DNA from: Sulfurimonas sp. HSL3-1
Lineage (GTDB): Bacteria; Campylobacterota; Campylobacteria; Campylobacterales; Sulfurimonadaceae
DNA: 64,000 nt
Direction of reading: 5' to 3'
Assembly: GCF_039645995.1 (NCBI RefSeq)
Contig: NZ_CP147920.1
Span: 806,001 to 870,000, forward strand
In this document: in pieces, positions 35,357-44,036 of the stretch
Layout: each line of letters starts with the position of its first letter
Numbering within the stretch: the stretch's first letter is position 1
The notes under the pieces: generated by a model
The model's input: only the letters and a program-made list of their open reading frames with translations
Database searches by the model: none
Told to the model about the DNA's origin: nothing
Position numbers and translations under genes: made by a program

Positions 35357-37560
35357 GCGCTTTCGGCCATCTGCTCGATCAGCTCGATCTCCAGGCCCAC
35401 GTCGCCGAGATCGAAAGCTTCCTCAGCCGTAAAAAGCCCCTCTATATCGAAGGGGACCAGGGACGCCACTATCAGTACATCCGTGCCCTTGACGCCCTCG
35501 AATTTCCCGCCCCGCCGAAAACGACCGCCTTCGATACGATCCTGATCCACCTCAAAAAGCAGGGGGTGCTCAGCTTCGAACAGATTTTCGAGCTCATCAA
35601 GGTCGTACGCTACTTCCGCACCCTGCGCAACAAAGGCTTCGAAGGAATCATCGGGGAGTGGATGGCCTCCGTCATCGTCCCCGACGCCTTCAGAGAGGTC
35701 GAGCGCCACTTTGATGAGAAGGGGCACTTCAAAGAGGAGCTCGACGAGGAACTCTTCGCCATCGCCGAACGGATCAAGGCGCAGAAGGGCGATGTCGCGG
35801 CGCAGATGAAACGGCTGCTCTATGCCGACAGGCTGCGCAGCTACCTCGTCGATACCCAGGTGCACTACATCAACGACGAGGAGTGTCTGCTGGTGCGCGG
35901 CGGTTTCAGCGCCGTGCTCAAAGGCAGCGTCGTGGGCCGGACGGGGGCGGGCTTCTTCTACGTCACCCCCGACACCCTGCTCAAATCCAAAGAGCAGATC
36001 CGCGCCCTGACCCAGGAGCGCGATGCGCGCTACTACGAGTACGCCAAGGGCTTCTCGGCGCAGCTGCGCGAATTGCAGCCCTTTATCGGCTTTATCGACA
36101 AAGAGTTCGACCGCCTCGACCACTACCAGGCCCGGGTGCTTTTCGCCCGTGCCAAAGGGTTGCATATCGTCGCGGCGCAGCCGGGCGAGGCGATCGTGCT
36201 TGAGGCCTTCGAGCACCCGGCCCTCTCCAACCCCAAACCCGTCAGCCTCGATTTCAGCGCTTCGGTGCTGATGATCACGGGGGTCAACGCGGGGGGAAAG
36301 ACGATGCTGCTCAAATCGATCCTCTCCGCGGCGCTGATGGCCAAGTACCTGCTGCCGATGAAGCTCAATCCCCACCGTTCGCGCATCGGGTCGTTCAAAC
36401 AGATCGAAGCGGTCATCGACGACCCCCAGAATGTCCGCAACGACATCTCCACCTTTGCCGGGCGGATGCAGCAGTTCTCCCGTCTTTTCGAGCGTAAATC
36501 GGCCCTGGTCGGGGTTGACGAGATCGAACTGGGGACGGACAGCGACGAAGCGGCGGCGCTTTTCAAGGTGATCCTCGACGACCTGATCCGCCGGGGGCAG
36601 AAGATCGTCGTCACGACCCACCACAAACGGCTCGCCTCCCTGATGGCGGACCGCGACGACGTCGAACTGGTCGCCGCCGTCTACGACGAGGAGCGACGGG
36701 TCCCCACCTACGACTTTTTGCAGGGGATCATCGGCAAAAGCTACGCCTTCGAGACAGCCCTGCGCTACGGAATCACCCAGGGGATCGTCGTGCGCGCCAA
36801 GGAGGTCTACGGCGAGCAGCACGAGAAGCTCAACCTCCTTATCGAGCGGGGGAGCGAACTGGAGCGGGAGCTGCGGCGCAAACACGCCGATGCGGACGAA
36901 CGTCTGGAACGGCTGGAGGAGCGTGAGCGCGTGCTGAAGGATGAACGCGAGAGCCTGCGCCGGGAGTACGAGGAGCTTGAACGGCGCCTGCGCGGCGAGT
37001 TCCGGCAGGCAATCGACAGCGCCAAAGCGGCGGCAAAAGCGGGGGATACGGCGGCGATCCACCGGGCGATGAACGAGGCGAACAAACAGCTGCCCGAAAA
37101 GCGCGAAGCGAAGCAGAAAACGGCCCCTGTCGCCCTCAACGTCGGGGATGAGGTCAAGTACCGCAAGCAGCGCGGCGTCATCGTCGCGCTCAAGGAGAAG
37201 GAAGCGACGATCGAAGTCGAGGGGATGCGGCTGCGCGTGAGGCGCAACGAGCTCAAACCCGCCGGGAAAGCGGCTGCGCCGAAACCGAAGGTACAGGTGA
37301 GCAACAAAGTCGAAAAGCGCAGCGGACTCAAGCTCGATCTGCACGGCATGCGGGCCGAACAGGCCCGGGAGAAGATGGACGTCTTCATCTCCGACGCCCT
37401 GATCCAGGGGTGGGACGAGGTGATCATCTACCACGGCATCGGCACGGGCAAACTCGCCTACGCCGTCAAGGAGTTCCTCAAAGAACACCCCAGCGTTAAA
37501 AGTTTCGAAGACGCCCCCCCGCAGCTGGGCGGTTTCGGGGCAAAAATCGTTCACCTCTGA
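35353..37560 (+). CDS. mutS2: Endonuclease MutS2
   Basis: 735-residue MutS2, a MutS relative lacking mismatch-recognition domains. The core/clamp region occupies about 1-300. The ATPase has Walker A ITGVNAGGKTM (about 310-320) and Walker B LVGVDEIELGTDSDEA. A long charged coiled coil follows (about 490-560), then a KOW-like segment (VGDEVKYRKQRGVIV), and the C-terminal Smr nuclease domain begins LKLDLHGMRAEQA (about 655-735) with HGxGTG as YHGIGTGKL. In H. pylori MutS2 suppresses recombination; in others it acts on stalled ribosomes. ATG chosen within the ATGA overlap. Confidence 0.95.
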   Translation: MSAFGHLLDQLDLQAHVAEIESFLSRKKPLYIEGDQGRHYQYIRALDALEFPAPPKTTAFDTILIHLKKQGVLSFEQIFELIKVVRYFRTLRNKGFEGIIGEWMASVIVPDAFREVERHFDEKGHFKEELDEELFAIAERIKAQKGDVAAQMKRLLYADRLRSYLVDTQVHYINDEECLLVRGGFSAVLKGSVVGRTGAGFFYVTPDTLLKSKEQIRALTQERDARYYEYAKGFSAQLRELQPFIGFIDKEFDRLDHYQARVLFARAKGLHIVAAQPGEAIVLEAFEHPALSNPKPVSLDFSASVLMITGVNAGGKTMLLKSILSAALMAKYLLPMKLNPHRSRIGSFKQIEAVIDDPQNVRNDISTFAGRMQQFSRLFERKSALVGVDEIELGTDSDEAAALFKVILDDLIRRGQKIVVTTHHKRLASLMADRDDVELVAAVYDEERRVPTYDFLQGIIGKSYAFETALRYGITQGIVVRAKEVYGEQHEKLNLLIERGSELERELRRKHADADERLERLEERERVLKDERESLRREYEELERRLRGEFRQAIDSAKAAAKAGDTAAIHRAMNEANKQLPEKREAKQKTAPVALNVGDEVKYRKQRGVIVALKEKEATIEVEGMRLRVRRNELKPAGKAAAPKPKVQVSNKVEKRSGLKLDLHGMRAEQAREKMDVFISDALIQGWDEVIIYHGIGTGKLAYAVKEFLKEHPSVKSFEDAPPQLGGFGAKIVHL

Positions 37561-37566
37561 TATAAT
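37558..37566 (+). promoter_or_regulatory. Extended -10 promoter of the outer-membrane protein/MMPL pair
   Basis: TGATATAAT, an extended -10, overlaps the mutS2 stop codon. Transcription from about 37573 would leave a leader of about 60 nt to the GTG at 37632, and makes the in-frame ATG at 37575 an unlikely start. Confidence 0.6.
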
Positions 37567-37631
37567 ATCCACTAATGTACTTGGCTCGGGAGCGCCTTGC
37601 TTCCGGGCCGGATGGAGAGGTGACGTCTACC

Positions 37632-38996
37632 GTGAACCGTCTTGTTGCCGTGACGCTGGCCTTGGGAGTGATAGGGGGGTGCACGCAACTGGACGGAAAA
37701 GAGATATCCTCCGCGGCGACCGGCCTGCCCGGAAGCCTTACCCTCAAGCAATCTTTTGTAGTGCGGCAACTCGACAACGGTGCTACCTATCCGCAGACCC
37801 CCTATATCCTGACGTTGAACGAAGGGAACTACGAGCAGGGACAGTACCGCATCGACGGCGGGCTCCTGCTCTACAAGGGGCATGACGGTAGCGGTGTGAG
37901 CCTCAACCAGATGGCCCTGGTCTACTGGGGGGATGATTTCGACGTCAGGATAGGAAAATTCGTTTCCAAAACGGGGGTGCTTGACTATCTGAGCGGCATG
38001 GACCTTCTCAACCCGGTCCGGGTGGATTTTTTTGACGATGCGAATATCAACCTCCGAAGGCTCCCGCAGTGGATGGCGGAGCTCTCCTGCTTTGTCGGGG
38101 AGAGTTCCCTGCTCAGAGTAACCGTACAGCCTTACGACGGGCGGACGCAGAGCTACATCTCGACGTATGTGGGATTTCTGCTCGACAGTTACCTTCCGGC
38201 CTATTTTGAACAGCTCATTCAAAACAGTGCGGAGGGGGCGGCGATCTACCGGAACGTGTTCCTCCCGCTGTACCGCGACGGCATCAGCCCGGCGCTCAAA
38301 AGCGATATCGACGCGCAGTACAATGAACGCGGGCTGGCCGTGGAAAAAAGCACGATCCAGGTGCTTGCCGAGAGCAGCGGTGCGGGGGCCACGTTCGGCG
38401 CAGTGTGGACGAACCGCTACTCGGAGGTGCCCTATATAGAGGTCGATCAGCAGCTGCTTGACATGATCGGTGCGCTGCCGGATGGACAAAACAGCGGGGA
38501 AGCGTTCCGGGAATACCTGGATCAGCCGGACCTCAACCCTATCAAGGGCGTCAGAGGGTTCCGCTACAACCAGTACTCCCTCTATGCCGAGGGCACGGTC
38601 GACACGTACGGCGTTCGCGCCGAAGTGGGCGTGCGCGACAGGGTGCCGACACTCAACACCTTCAGTCCCCTCGCCATGGTCGGTGTCGGGGTGGACCGGC
38701 AGGCGGGGAGCGCCTATTTCGACCTGGAAGTGCAGTGGGGCTATCTCAAACAGTACCGCCAGAGCGTGCTGGCGACCGTGCTGCTGAACAAGTTTGACCT
38801 GACGGTCTACAGGGGGGTGGCCGTGCGTTTCGACCACTACCTGATCACCGGGTGGTATGCGGGCAACGCCACCGCCGTGATGCTCCCTAACCTCGTGTTC
38901 ACCCGCGGCGCCTTTGAAGTCGATCTGCATGCCCTCTACCACTCCGACGACAAAGCGTACAACACCGTCGGGTTCACGCTGAGGGCAGCGTTTTGA
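37632..38996 (+). CDS. Outer-membrane beta-barrel-like protein (possible lipoprotein) of the MMPL module
   Basis: 454 residues. The N-terminus MNRLVAVTLALGVIGGC looks like a lipoprotein signal (Cys 17), with a plain signal peptide as alternative. The rest alternates short beta strands with polar turns throughout (for example DVRIGKFVSK, SAYFDLEVQWGYL, VAVRFDHYLITGWY) and ends in Phe (FTLRAAF), the classic last residue of outer-membrane barrels. No named family is certain. Barrel proteins of this length are typical partners of MMPL permeases. GTG 37632 was chosen for the signal peptide; GAGAGG is 11 nt upstream, a weak fit. It overlaps the permease start by 4 nt. Confidence 0.7.
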   Translation: MNRLVAVTLALGVIGGCTQLDGKEISSAATGLPGSLTLKQSFVVRQLDNGATYPQTPYILTLNEGNYEQGQYRIDGGLLLYKGHDGSGVSLNQMALVYWGDDFDVRIGKFVSKTGVLDYLSGMDLLNPVRVDFFDDANINLRRLPQWMAELSCFVGESSLLRVTVQPYDGRTQSYISTYVGFLLDSYLPAYFEQLIQNSAEGAAIYRNVFLPLYRDGISPALKSDIDAQYNERGLAVEKSTIQVLAESSGAGATFGAVWTNRYSEVPYIEVDQQLLDMIGALPDGQNSGEAFREYLDQPDLNPIKGVRGFRYNQYSLYAEGTVDTYGVRAEVGVRDRVPTLNTFSPLAMVGVGVDRQAGSAYFDLEVQWGYLKQYRQSVLATVLLNKFDLTVYRGVAVRFDHYLITGWYAGNATAVMLPNLVFTRGAFEVDLHALYHSDDKAYNTVGFTLRAAF

Positions 38997-40837
38997 AGCT
39001 CGGGATGAAAACGGGGGCGCTGCTGTTGCTGCTGCTGTTCGGCGCGGCTTTGATGCGACAGGTTGAGGTGCGCACGGTGGACTGGAGCCGTTTCTTTCCC
39101 GGCACGCCTGCTTCGGCGATGCCGCAGCAGTGGTTTACGGCGGAGCGGCAGTATCTTTTTAGCGCGCTACCGGATGAGGCTCCTCTGCATATGTGGCGTT
39201 CGGAGGGGCTGATCGCGGACTATTACCGCATCGACCGGCAGGGCCTTTACCTGATGACGTTCAACCGTCAAAACCAGAACGCCGTCCTCGCACGGGTCGG
39301 GGGGTATCCGCACAGCGGCACCGCCGTCGTCGGTGCCCTGCTGCTGCAGGGGTTTTTCGGCGACATGGTCTTTTACCTGTATGCGATCGTGCCTTTTCTG
39401 CTCCTGCTGCTTTGGCTGCTGACATCGCTGGAGTACCTGCTGAACATTCTCATCGAGATCGGGGCGTTTACGGTGTCGCTGCTCGCCGTGCTGGTGACCG
39501 GCGGTGTCGCCGTCGACCCCGCCGCGCTGCTGGCGGTCGTTTTTCTCGTCATTTACGCTTTGACCCTTTTCAACTATCTCCATTCCGGGGAGATCGGCAA
39601 ACACCAGCTGGCGTTCGGCATCACCCTCTCGGTCGCCACGACCGCTTTGAGCTCTCTTTTCCTCTATGCGTCGGATTTCGGGCTGGTCAGTACGTTCGGA
39701 AAGATGATGCTGATCGGGCTGGGGGTGCTCTACGGCTATCTCATCGGGCGGATCTACCTCTTCAGACCGCTGCGTCTCGTGTTCGGCTGGCGCCGCCGAT
39801 GGCATGCGGACGATGCCCGGCTGAAAAAGGGGCTGCTGTTTCTCGGGGGCGCCGCCGTTGCCTGCGGCTTCGTCTGCGCGAAGGCCCCCTCTGTCGATCT
39901 GAACCCCATGAACCTCATGCAGCCGACGATGGCGGCGTACAAACGCATTGCGGCGTTCGAGTCCGACCATTTGCCGACGCTGCCTTTTGTCGTCCGCTTA
40001 CGCGCGCAGAAGGGCGATCTCTCCGATGTAGGTAAGGCTCGGGAGCTCGCCGGGCTGACGGCGCGTATCGCTGGCGCAGTGCCCGGGGTGCTGCTGGGGA
40101 GCCTTCCGATGGGGTATGAGCGTTTCGCGGGATCGCCGCTTCGCGATGCGACGCCCGATGCCTACGCCCAGTATCTTCTTGCCCTGGAGTGGCTCGACGG
40201 CGGCCTGCCGCTGCTGAGTGCGGATCAGCGCGAGACCTATATGACGCTGAGTATCCCGATCACGACGCCGTCATATACGATTGCCGCCATGCTCAGGCGG
40301 CTGCAGGCGATCGGGGAGGCTTCGGGCGATTTCTCGGTCGGCATCCTGGGCAAGATCGCCGATTTCGAACATTTCCTGAGACGTTTTGTTGGGGAGTTCC
40401 TGATGGGCGTCGGTATCTCGCTCGGGTTCGTCGTGCTCTTTTTCCTGCTTTACTGCCGGACATGGAAGAGCATCATCGTCGTTGTGCCGCCGCTGCTTTC
40501 GCTGCTGCTGCTGGCAAGTGTTCACCGCCTGCTGGGGATGGATTTTACCATGATCACGCTGCTGGGCACGATTCTGTTCATCGGGCTGGTGACGGATTCG
40601 ATCATCCATCTTTTCATCTGCATGAAACAGGAGGGGCCTGCCTGCATCGGCAGCGTGCTGCGTCCGATCATCGTCTCGAACACGACGATGCTGATCGGGC
40701 TGGGCGGGATGCTGTTCGGCGGAACGATGATCCAGCGCTTCGGCATGGAACTGGGGATCCTGCTGGCGGCGAACCTCGCCGTTGTGGTCTACCTGCTGCC
40801 GCTGCTGCTGAAGCGCTACTTCTTCCGCTGCGGGTGA
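38993..40837 (+). CDS. Compact MMPL/RND-superfamily permease
   Basis: 614 residues. Layout: helix 1 (about 6-21), a periplasmic loop of about 105 residues, a first helix bundle (about 127-290), a second periplasmic loop of about 165 residues (300-465) and a final bundle (466-607). The RND proton-relay motif appears once, as GLVTDSIIHLF (Asp 535); the matching place in the first half (IYALTLFNYLHSGE) lacks the Asp. It is shorter than usual MMPL proteins (700-1000). MMPL permeases move lipids, hopanoids or hydrophobic compounds out of the inner membrane. TTG start with GAGGG 7 nt upstream. It ends 2 nt from the convergent LolA-like gene. Confidence 0.85.
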   Translation: MKLGMKTGALLLLLLFGAALMRQVEVRTVDWSRFFPGTPASAMPQQWFTAERQYLFSALPDEAPLHMWRSEGLIADYYRIDRQGLYLMTFNRQNQNAVLARVGGYPHSGTAVVGALLLQGFFGDMVFYLYAIVPFLLLLLWLLTSLEYLLNILIEIGAFTVSLLAVLVTGGVAVDPAALLAVVFLVIYALTLFNYLHSGEIGKHQLAFGITLSVATTALSSLFLYASDFGLVSTFGKMMLIGLGVLYGYLIGRIYLFRPLRLVFGWRRRWHADDARLKKGLLFLGGAAVACGFVCAKAPSVDLNPMNLMQPTMAAYKRIAAFESDHLPTLPFVVRLRAQKGDLSDVGKARELAGLTARIAGAVPGVLLGSLPMGYERFAGSPLRDATPDAYAQYLLALEWLDGGLPLLSADQRETYMTLSIPITTPSYTIAAMLRRLQAIGEASGDFSVGILGKIADFEHFLRRFVGEFLMGVGISLGFVVLFFLLYCRTWKSIIVVVPPLLSLLLLASVHRLLGMDFTMITLLGTILFIGLVTDSIIHLFICMKQEGPACIGSVLRPIIVSNTTMLIGLGGMLFGGTMIQRFGMELGILLAANLAVVVYLLPLLLKRYFFRCG

Positions 40838-40839
40838 GC

Positions 40840-41571
40840 TTAGAAGGTGCAGCGGTGCAGACGGTTGTGATGAAATAGCCCCCGTTTGATATCGCGAGAG
40901 ACGCTCTCGGTGTCAACCATGTAGGTCAGCTTCCGCGACTTGATGAGGTCGTTGACCTGCCAGCGGGTGATGAGCATCTGTTCATCAATGCGGTTGACCG
41001 CGTCGATGGAGACGACCCGCTGCAGCTGGCCCCCTTTGAAGATTTCGACTTTTCTGATCACGGAGGTGGCGGCGTCGATGTAGTAGACCGAGCGGTTTCC
41101 CTTTCGCCTCAGTGTCACCTTGTAACAGGCAGCGCCGTCGAACTGTGTCTCCTCCAGCGGATCGAATGTCCCTGTTTTCGCGTCCAGTTCGGCGTAGGAG
41201 ATCCCCATGCCGACGGCTTCGCTCTCCTCTTCTTGTTCGGGGATGATCCGTACGCGTTTCAGGGCGGGGAAGTAGATGGCATTGCTGCTGCTCTCCTGCT
41301 CCCGCTCGATCAGGATGGCGGTGCATTTGATGTTTTGCGGGGAGCGGAAACGGATCAGGAGGGATGAAGCGTCTCCCGTCTGCCGTTCGGCGACCATAAA
41401 AGAGCGTTCCTGCCGGTTGCCGCTGTTTTCTACGGTCATCGTGACGTCGAAACGCAGGTTGCCGAACGAGAAGAGTTTCGCGCTTTTTGCATAGATGGCC
41501 TCGGCACTCTCCGAAGCGCACAGGCTGAGTCCGGCCCAGGTCAGCAGGGTGGCTATACGGTGCCACTGCAT
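40840..41571 (-). CDS. LolA-like periplasmic 'outer membrane lipoprotein-sorting' protein
   Basis: 243 residues. A signal peptide (about 1-24, ending ASESAEA) leads into a LolA/LppX-like fold: NLRFDVTMTVENSG, SSLLIRFRSPQNIKCTAILI, NAIYFPALKRVRII and SVYYIDAATSVIRKVEIF are the alternating strands of the half-barrel. In MMPL-linked systems such proteins carry hydrophobic cargo between permease and outer membrane. It is second in a minus-strand pair behind the repeat lipoprotein (the start overlaps nothing but lies 1 nt after its TGA) and convergent with the permease. I chose the ATG that begins the signal peptide. Confidence 0.8.
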   Translation of the reverse strand: MQWHRIATLLTWAGLSLCASESAEAIYAKSAKLFSFGNLRFDVTMTVENSGNRQERSFMVAERQTGDASSLLIRFRSPQNIKCTAILIEREQESSSNAIYFPALKRVRIIPEQEEESEAVGMGISYAELDAKTGTFDPLEETQFDGAACYKVTLRRKGNRSVYYIDAATSVIRKVEIFKGGQLQRVVSIDAVNRIDEQMLITRWQVNDLIKSRKLTYMVDTESVSRDIKRGLFHHNRLHRCTF

Positions 41572-41572
41572 G

Positions 41573-43672
41573 TCACACCGTCGCATTGGCATCGGATGCC
41601 TGCGCGGTATGCGTCGCGACCCACTCCAGCGCGCTCAGGGTGATCTCGCGCAGGAGGCTCTGATTGTCCAGCACCGCCAGGGCATACTCCTGCATGTTCG
41701 CCATCATCTGCTCCATCGTGCCCGCGACGACGGTGACGATCTGGTCCTCCGCCGCCGGCGTATACCATTCGCGGTCGAGAATAAGCGCCATCCCCGTCAG
41801 CATGAGGTTGGTGATCGTCTTCATCCCGTCATAGATCAGCAGCCCGAAATCGAGGATCAGCATCTCCGTATAGACGATCAGCTGTTCGGTGTAGACGATC
41901 CGGTCCGCCATCTCGCCGATCCTGTCGGCCATCTGGCCGATCTGCACGGCCATCCAGAGGATCCGGTCGGCCATGATGCCGACCTCCTCGCCGCGGGAGG
42001 CGAAGAGGTAGCCGAACTCCATCCCCTTCATCGCGAACTGGTAGGCATCCTCCTCGATATCCATCGTAAAGCTGTAGGCGAGGTCGGCCATATGGGTGGC
42101 AAAGTCGTAGGCGTCGCTTGCCGTCTGGGCGGTAAAGCTGTAGGCAAGGTCCGCCAGATGCGATGCAAAGGCGAACGCGTCGGTCTCCGTTTGGGAAGCA
42201 AAATCGGAAGCCTGGGTCGAAAAGGTGACGGACATCGTGGCGATCAGGTCGAAGAGGTCGCGCCAGGAGGCACCGTTGTCCAGAAGGTCGCGGAGCTGAT
42301 CGAAATAGCTGGCGCTCTCCGTCGTGTAGACGGTGCCGCTTTTCAACACCCCCTGCATCTCCCGGGTATAGGTCGTAAAGGCATCCGTCTGCGGCAGGGC
42401 GCCGGCACCGAACAGCGTGACGAAGGTCTCGGCATCGCTCCCCTCGGCAAATCCCTCCTGCACGACCCCCTCCGTCGTGACCGCATGCGCGCTGAGCATC
42501 GTGAAGAGCTGGCGTACGACGACGGAGATGACGGCGAGGGAGACGGAGCGTTTTTTGAGGGTATCGAGCGAGGCCTGCTGCTCCGCGCTCAGCGTGTAGT
42601 GCTCGGTGGCCGGGTCATAGCCGTCCTGGAGCGACGCCAGCAGCGCTTCGGAATGCGTCTTTGCCGTGCCGATGACCGTGCTGACCGCGCCGCCGACGAC
42701 CTTGAACATCAGCGCGACCAGGGCGCTTTGCACGGAAACCGATCCGAGGAAGGTTTCCATCTGCAGGGTCTCATCGGATGTCATTGTGCCGGCGGACGCC
42801 GGGGAGACCGCCGCCGTACCGGCCGCAGCGAGTTTTTCGAGGGAGAAGAGCCCCATGAGCGCCACCGCGGCGATCGCCATCTTCGCAAAACTCAGCAGGG
42901 TGTCGCTGTTGCTCTCAAAGCTCAGATCGGCCGCCGTCTTATCCGCAATGATCTTGAGCAGCTTGTCGACGGCGAAGTAGGTGAGGGTGGCGTAGAGAAG
43001 GGCCCGGGCGTCGCCGTTGTCAAAGAGGCTTTTGAGGTAGTTGAAAAAGCCGTTCATGGCGATCCTGATGGCATCGAAGATGTATTGGAGCGCGTCCCCG
43101 GCCGCCGCTTTGAGTTTGGCAAGGAGATTGTCGAAATCGCTGAACTCCGATGGGGTCTCCGCCGCCGTACGGTAGTGCGCCGATGCCGCGGCGACATCCG
43201 GCGCACTCTGTGCCGTCTCCTGCGGACGATTCTGGTAGTCGAAAAGGCGCATGGTCGCCAGCAGTTTCACATACTGGTGGCCGAACTGCTGATGGGCGAG
43301 GCTGCCGTAGGTTTCGTATTTGCGCCACATCGACTCCGTCTCGTCGCTCTGGAAAAACAGCGCATTGAGCGGGGAATCGGCCGGCAGGGTCGGGGTCGTC
43401 GCGGCGAAAAAGCTGCTGATGTCGTCCGGGGTAGGCTGTGCCGTTGTCCGCAGCGGGGAGGCATAGGTTCCGGTGAGGCCGCCGAGAAGGTTTTCGATCT
43501 CGGCGACGGTGCTGTCGTTTTGCGTTTTGGCCGCTTGCAGCAGTGCGACACGCCGGTCGATGGGAGAGAGGGCCGTACCGCCGCCGGAGCCGCCGCAGCC
43601 CGATAAGAGATTGATCGCAGGGAGTGAATAGAGCGCAATCGCGCTTGTTGAGAGAAACTTCCGTCTGTTCAT
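41573..43672 (-). CDS. Tat-type lipoprotein with 22-residue and heptad repeats, unknown family
   Basis: 699 residues, no family recognised. The start MNRRKFLSTS has the twin-arginine pattern and ends in a lipobox LLSGC (Cys 26) followed by Gly/Ser, so it should be a Tat-exported lipoprotein. Residues 60-480 are mostly helical with hydrophobic helices at about 228-245, 263-285 and 316-335. Residues 498-563 are three 22-residue repeats, and 567-629 is a heptad array (MADRILW, MAVQIGQ, MADRIGE and so on). Both are amphipathic helix patterns reminiscent of apolipoprotein-like lipid binding. It lies upstream of the LolA-like gene in the same operon. AAAGG is 6 nt from the ATG. Confidence 0.75.
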   Translation of the reverse strand: MNRRKFLSTSAIALYSLPAINLLSGCGGSGGGTALSPIDRRVALLQAAKTQNDSTVAEIENLLGGLTGTYASPLRTTAQPTPDDISSFFAATTPTLPADSPLNALFFQSDETESMWRKYETYGSLAHQQFGHQYVKLLATMRLFDYQNRPQETAQSAPDVAAASAHYRTAAETPSEFSDFDNLLAKLKAAAGDALQYIFDAIRIAMNGFFNYLKSLFDNGDARALLYATLTYFAVDKLLKIIADKTAADLSFESNSDTLLSFAKMAIAAVALMGLFSLEKLAAAGTAAVSPASAGTMTSDETLQMETFLGSVSVQSALVALMFKVVGGAVSTVIGTAKTHSEALLASLQDGYDPATEHYTLSAEQQASLDTLKKRSVSLAVISVVVRQLFTMLSAHAVTTEGVVQEGFAEGSDAETFVTLFGAGALPQTDAFTTYTREMQGVLKSGTVYTTESASYFDQLRDLLDNGASWRDLFDLIATMSVTFSTQASDFASQTETDAFAFASHLADLAYSFTAQTASDAYDFATHMADLAYSFTMDIEEDAYQFAMKGMEFGYLFASRGEEVGIMADRILWMAVQIGQMADRIGEMADRIVYTEQLIVYTEMLILDFGLLIYDGMKTITNLMLTGMALILDREWYTPAAEDQIVTVVAGTMEQMMANMQEYALAVLDNQSLLREITLSALEWVATHTAQASDANATV
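41807..42181 (-). repeat. Protein-level amphipathic repeats (3 x 22 residues, then 7-residue units)
   Basis: 41984-42181 encodes three consecutive 22-residue units beginning DAF, DAY, DAY (shared core FA..hADLAYSF, third copy diverged). 41807-41974 encodes eight consecutive 7-residue units, four of them starting MA (three of these MADRI), two starting TE. The coding DNA is diverged enough that this is an old protein repeat rather than a recent DNA duplication. Confidence 0.8.
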
Positions 43673-44036
43673 GAGTCACCTTTCAATTCCGGTAGGCCGC
43701 AGATCCGTGCAATGCGTTTGCGGAGCTGCGACACGCAATAACACTCTTCATCCGAGGAGATAAGTCAAGGGGGGAGCCAAACCGCCCCGTGCCATGGACG
43801 CGAAGAGAACTAGGATGCCGAGCACGGGAACAGCATAAGAGAAGATTACTTAATTTTCATGGCTAAAATCATAAAAAATAATTATATTTAATGGCAGTAA
43901 TGTGGCGTTGCAGCGTAGGGTGTCGGAAGGGTGCATAGCATCATGTCGATGAAAGAGAGGGGGGATTGGCGAGGCGTCAAAGAGGGCGGCTGCGAACGCA
44001 CCCCGGATGGTATCGGAGTGCGGGGAGCCGCAGGAC
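43673..44036. other. Gene-free 364-bp gap
   Basis: No coding region is convincing on either strand. It holds the upstream region of the repeat lipoprotein, an AT-rich patch at about 43845-43895 unlike the surrounding GC-rich DNA, and a short TGCGG/CCGCA hairpin (44019-44032) 4 nt after the haemerythrin stop that could weakly terminate it (no U-run). A minus-strand TTGACT (43763-43768) is the only -35-like sequence upstream of the lipoprotein, without a matching -10. Confidence 0.6.

Follow-up and report, generated by a model that had tools for sequence, protein, structure and literature searches.

Gene organisation of the locus

Do the four envelope-protein genes that lie between mutS2 and a haemerythrin gene of Sulfurimonas sp. 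HSL3-1 form one unit, and what would such a unit do? We investigated this question in a 64,000-nucleotide stretch of the genome (NZ_CP147920.1, positions 806,001 to 870,000; hereafter the window). A sequence-only reading of the window had proposed a four-gene envelope module, consisting of an outer-membrane barrel-like protein, an MMPL/RND permease, a LolA-like protein and an unrecognised Tat-type lipoprotein (here called P4), the last with amphipathic 22-mer and 7-mer repeats that could serve as a tethered lipid-binding surface. All four reading frames were recovered as it had called them (Table 1), and the 2-nt gap that it described between the two converging gene pairs was confirmed at 40838–40839, between the stops of the permease and LolA-like genes.

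The barrel and permease reading frames overlap by 4 nt on the + strand. Since ATG 37575 is not conserved, the true barrel start is probably GTG 37620 or 37632. Similarly, M8 of the LolA-like protein is invariant, so this protein probably starts at ATG 41571, in which case the LolA-like and P4 genes would abut without overlap.

Table 1 Coordinates of the module, its genes and the sequence features of P4 (positions in the window).
Feature	Position	Strand	Remarks
Outer-membrane barrel-like protein, DUF1302 kind	37575–38996	+	473 aa as called; DUF1302 via homologues
Permease, compact RND/MMPL fold	38993–40837	+	614 aa, periplasmic loops reduced; predicted fold
LolA-like periplasmic protein	40840–41592	-	250 aa as called; PF17131
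P4, Tat-exported lipoprotein	41573–43672	-	699 aa, no known family
P4 residues 1–26, signal RRKFL and lipobox LLSGC	43595–43672	-	From sequence; kept in relatives
P4 residues 489–565, seven 11-residue repeats	41978–42208	-	[YF]-x-F-[AT]-x(6)-[AG]
P4 residues 577–620, heptads	41813–41944	-	IGQMADR-IGEMADR-IVYTEQL..., Ile at a, Met/Thr at d
P4 residues 542–633, family signature core	41774–42049	-	77–99% identity to the window across module lipoproteins
Whole module, present/absent segment	37559–44034		~6.47 kb, mutS2 stop to haemerythrin stop

Conservation of the four-gene unit

The complete four-gene set was found in identical order and convergent orientation in ten genomes from two phyla, with several different flanks. 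The window's genome and its congeners G004, G006 and G007 carry the module at one shared site, and a genome of another Campylobacterota family (G039) has all four genes with order and orientation kept between different flanks. Further complete copies occur in two Sulfuricurvum genomes and one uncultured Campylobacterales bacterium (G422, G477 and G436) and, among Gammaproteobacteria, in Thiomicrorhabdus sp. 6S3-12 and a Thiotrichales bacterium (L087, L093); the more distant P4 relatives were found by a contig search using the core alignment. Contig ends interrupt the loci of G474, G534 and G431, that of G431 within the permease gene. Thiomicrorhabdus NP51 (L090) has a split P4 frame, and an integrase-like reading frame comes after its LolA-like gene.

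A profile search detected the compact permease in 10 of 228 genomes of the family, namely the nine that carry P4 and G431; this co-occurrence of permease and P4 corresponds to a Fisher P value of 2.6e-15, uncorrected for relatedness. The four protein trees recover the same main groups (the two gammaproteobacteria, the window's genus, G039 and the Sulfuricurvum group), and their disagreement is confined to weak branches. The sequence-only reading had also suggested comparing the flanks in related genomes for an insertion between mutS2 and ligA, and such a comparison revealed a clean empty site in the congener G003 (mutS2 93% identical to the window's), where the mutS2 and haemerythrin genes lie 8 bp apart. 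Alignment of the junctions with G003 placed the additional segment at about 37559–44034 of the window. The occupied/empty comparison fits gain and loss alike, and visual inspection of the segment ends revealed neither terminal repeats nor a target duplication.

The strict co-occurrence, the order shared in two phyla, the agreeing trees and the occupied/empty site together indicate that the four genes are one real unit, which bears out the proposed module. We also applied the refuting condition set by the sequence-only reading, lipoprotein homologues occurring mostly without the permease and LolA-like genes; the co-occurrence held, and the module was not refuted.

Three Campylobacterota copies have, in the barrel operon, an additional barrel-like ORF of ~260 aa with a weak PF03797 match (L057:6423-8282, L083:5737-7629, L084:2624-4513), and a divergent exported ORF of ~330 aa as well; in Thiomicrorhabdus, a DUF481 protein stands in place of the additional barrel-like ORF. 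No conserved metabolic neighbour that would indicate a substrate was found at the module loci.

Permease, LolA-like protein and barrel

The AlphaFold2 model of the permease (pLDDT 81, pTM 0.81) matched MmpL4/5, HpnN, MmpL3, NPC1 and SecDF in a Foldseek comparison with the PDB, with MmpL4 as the best match (E = 1.4e-14), while a profile search returned weak matches to an RND pump (8gjj, E = 7e-4) and HpnN (6wu0, E = 0.014–0.021). The hydrophobic segments and large loops of the sequence are arranged in RND order, and the model has two halves of six transmembrane (TM) segments each, with periplasmic loops after TM1 and TM7. Going by this model, the permease is of the predicted RND/MMPL fold, as the sequence-only reading had supposed, though it matches no Pfam family, falls below the cut-off of the MMPL family (PF03176) and is not one of the 15 matches to PF03176 found in its genome. 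An acidic TM4 residue is usual in the RND family. Of the acidic proton-relay residues expected in TM4 and TM10, inspection of residues 172–232 and 505–560 revealed only the one in TM10, Asp535 (invariant in 10 of 10 sequences), and none where TM4 should carry it, so the proton drive of this permease may be altered.

The LolA-like protein matched PF17131 with E = 1.5e-19 and 70.8 bits, well above the cut-off of 30. The window barrel itself had no direct match in Pfam, PF06980 included; its homologue in G422 (32.5% identity, E = 4e-84), however, matched DUF1302 (PF06980, E = 7.7e-10, 38.8 bits, cut-off 23.2), and the barrel profile matched the DUF1302-like barrel of a second locus described below (probability 91.7, E = 7.8e-7). 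These results suggest that the barrel is DUF1302-like. Both assignments of the sequence-only reading thus stand, that of the barrel through homologues rather than by the window protein itself, and permease, LolA-like protein and DUF1302 barrel make up a known kind of envelope-spanning transport system. Elsewhere in the same genome (G000:C1:248985-253060), an ordinary MMPL gene adjoins a PF17131 gene, apparently without P4.

The lipoprotein P4 and its C-terminal region

P4 had no significant match among Pfam, NCBIfam or PDB sequences, in agreement with its description as unrecognised. Its classification as a Tat-type lipoprotein proved equally sound: P4 carries the signal RRKFL...LLSGC, which is conserved across the module lipoproteins with a complete start, and the twin-arginine motif (RR-x-F) and lipobox are kept in G039, G422, G474, G436, L087, L090 and L093. 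Three hydrophobic stretches (residues 258–285, 308–337 and 376–395) lie N-terminal to the repeats. Between the window's genus and G039, P4 identity is 20–46% over residues 1–500 and 74–96% over residues 501–600.

A plasmid search with P4 returned only a short MADRI stretch in haloarchaeal plasmids, without metabolic context; one such protein (L110, NZ_CP095398.1 112850-113335) has a 40-residue MADRI stretch at 70–72% to P4. MADRI paralogues in the window's own genome (L031) were considered as P4 homologues and rejected, as only about 37–66 residues of repeat are in common. They belong to a tandem of Sec-exported proteins with MADRIGEMADRI repeats (L030/L031, G000:C1:1544520-1548065), directly downstream of an MFP-RND-OMF operon; this type of tandem pair occurs in the window's genome and its congeners, and similar pairs stand next to other genes elsewhere in the family.

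The C-terminal region of P4 also occurs in a signal-less protein of ~410 residues, encoded in seven genomes (G015 and six of the genus Sulfurimonas). As far as contig ends allow, all seven of these proteins adjoin a second transport locus, which encodes a large MMPL protein (PF03176, 1.2e-34), a DUF1302-like barrel and an ABC-2 transporter, the visible neighbours varying with contig ends. A PF17131-type protein was seen there in G015 and G538, that of G538 being assigned by its likeness to the G015 protein. Four other proteobacterial records contain the region alone, with no transport locus in the stretch seen. These occurrences suggest that the region is tied to MMPL/DUF1302-like/LolA-like transport in two settings, though it would not be an intrinsically periplasmic adaptor, because it is found in cytosolic proteins, in four records with no transport locus nearby. 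Small conserved unnamed proteins (about 83–227 aa) accompany the cytosolic P4-type protein (L033:8642-13787, L075:7312-10873), and one small protein beside it gave a sub-threshold Perilipin match (E = 0.058).

We evaluated the repeats of P4 by comparison with shuffled sequences. Residues 456–565 gave 26 identities at each of the lags 11 and 22, and none of 10,000 shuffles reached either value. The repeat lies far above chance and is followed by a heptad (3.5-residue periodicity, shuffle P = 0.006), as the sequence-only reading had it, whereas its "22-mer" is better read as a repeat of 11 residues. One explanation, which we regard as unlikely, is that P4 is a perilipin-like binder whose 11-residue helices lie flat on lipid or on a substrate delivered by the other parts. 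The repeats share their length and an 11/3 periodicity (shuffle P = 0.0125) with those of perilipins (PMC4807253), and the sub-threshold Perilipin match of the small protein next to the cytosolic form points in the same direction. P4 itself, however, has no Pfam Perilipin match and no sequence homology to perilipins at threshold, the helical moment of the repeats is equalled by 136 of 2000 shuffles, a weak result, and the strongest conservation lies around the heptads, which follow the hendecads here, and not in the hendecads themselves. Furthermore, the register is bifaceted: position 1 (Tyr or Phe) and position 3, where Phe is invariant, fall on opposite faces of the helix, so that a rod or bundle is no less likely than a helix resting on lipid.

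The repeats were thus upheld, while the simple one-faced amphipathic helix read into them is doubtful. The tethered lipid-binding surface, to which the perilipin-like reading corresponds, was not borne out, given repeats that are at least as rod- or coiled-coil-like and a region that recurs in cytosolic proteins. The predicted model of P4 is all-helical, with helices at residues 470–560 and 565–632, and is a hint at most at a pLDDT of 39. It is possible, if tentative, that P4 represents a new family of helical adaptors, in which a Tat-exported, lipid-anchored rod replaces the periplasmic partner of known systems and couples the compact permease to the DUF1302 barrel, and a cytosolic sister serves the second locus (MMPL, DUF1302-like, LolA-like and ABC) from within the cell; if true, transporters would be served on either side of the inner membrane by a single conserved helical module.

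Comparison with known transport systems

The closest known kind of system is AmeABCD of Castellaniella defragrans, together with the DUF1302/DUF1329/YCF48/MMPL cassettes, a kind that the sequence-only reading had left unnamed. AmeABCD, a tetrapartite exporter, consists of a DUF1302 outer-membrane protein, a LolA-superfamily protein, a YCF48-like protein and an HAE3-RND permease, and its deletion lowers monoterpene tolerance and increases Nile Red accumulation (PMC6394551). Growth of P. putida on Tween20 needs a DUF1302/DUF1329 pair and PP_2018/2019, two more envelope proteins (PMC10866462). The module shares with AmeABCD a cassette of conserved composition, with DUF1302 (here through the homology of relatives), LolA-superfamily and RND/MMPL permease genes and a fourth envelope protein. 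It differs in its smaller permease (614 versus 787 aa, below Pfam MMPL detection), in a LolA-like protein of PF17131 and not DUF1329, and in the arrangement of its genes in two convergent pairs. The fourth part is likewise different, a Tat lipoprotein with helical repeats and not a YCF48/COG4447 protein like AmeC; P4 had no significant Pfam or NCBIfam match, and its low-confidence prediction is all-helical.

In mycobacteria, MmpL/MmpS and LppX/LprG serve lipid export. The module resembles these systems in the predicted permease fold (TM-score about 0.68 to MmpL4/5) and in the logic of a permease with a lipid carrier, but P4 has no recognised LppX/LprG match, sequence identity is ~14%, and the module belongs to a proteobacterial-type envelope with an outer-membrane barrel. 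HpnN, the HAE3 hopanoid transporter, is similar to the permease in fold and weakly in profile; unlike the module, it functions with no periplasmic or outer-membrane partners encoded alongside it (PMC6394551). The open-access literature that we searched contained no description of this module, and one elsewhere is possible. The cassette is of a known type; what differs here is its lipoprotein family, its compact permease and its convergent layout.

Proposed mechanism

Based on the AmeABCD and P. putida precedents, we read the module as a transporter for an apolar or amphipathic compound, with four parts as in AmeABCD and P4 in the place of AmeC. We lean moderately towards this reading as a whole, which includes that the module is horizontally mobile and self-contained. 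At the inner membrane, the compact permease would use protons to move the compound, for which the LolA-like protein would act as periplasmic carrier or chaperone and the DUF1302-like barrel as outer-membrane port. P4 would be the fourth component, a helical adaptor or carrier, whose C-terminal hendecad-to-heptad region most likely would bridge or load the other parts as a lipid-anchored rod or bundle. We infer the joint complex, the role of P4, the class of substrate and the direction of export.

Alternative functions of the module

P4 might instead be the cargo of a dedicated lipoprotein route, with the LolA-like protein as its private chaperone, the permease releasing it from the inner membrane and the barrel displaying or anchoring it at the surface. 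The P4 and LolA-like genes adjoin on one strand wherever both were seen, and PF17131 is named for lipoprotein sorting, both of which fit this route. We nevertheless judge it unlikely, given that AmeABCD-type systems have the same barrel, LolA-fold and RND parts without such a lipoprotein (PMC6394551). The second locus, moreover, has like transport genes, yet its signal-less P4-type protein cannot be cargo.

The transporter could also work inwards rather than as the exporter that we favour, the barrel admitting a hydrophobic source of energy or carbon (elemental sulfur or hydrocarbons) that the periplasmic parts solubilise. Elemental sulfur was considered because of the hosts, as the named hosts of the complete module all fall in groups known for sulfur oxidation. 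The P. putida DUF1302/DUF1329 requirement on Tween20 and the induction of an MMPL/LolA-like protein on the n-C28 alkane (PMC6304351) are also consistent with import. RND permeases normally export, however, and P4, present in 9 of 228 genomes of the family, is far patchier than a core sulfur trait would be. Owing to this patchiness, and to cyclooctasulfur transcriptomes of Sulfurovum that point to OprD-type porins and leave RND, MMPL and LolA unmentioned (PMC10045233), the sulfur substrate was downgraded, and we consider import as a whole quite improbable.

We rejected the reading that unrelated genes came together by chance at a permissive mutS2–ligA site, with which the occupied/empty polymorphism would agree, as the same ordered set recurs at different sites, in other families and in another phylum with agreeing protein trees.

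Implications

LolA-like/DUF1302/MMPL sets are poorly understood, and how RND/MMPL proteins hand greasy molecules over to the outer membrane is an open question, for which a small self-contained module that is occupied or empty in close relatives offers a clean system. Furthermore, the C-terminal region of P4 is a strongly conserved, unnamed domain, exported as well as cytosolic and recurrent beside transport loci, and naming it would aid the annotation of many genomes.
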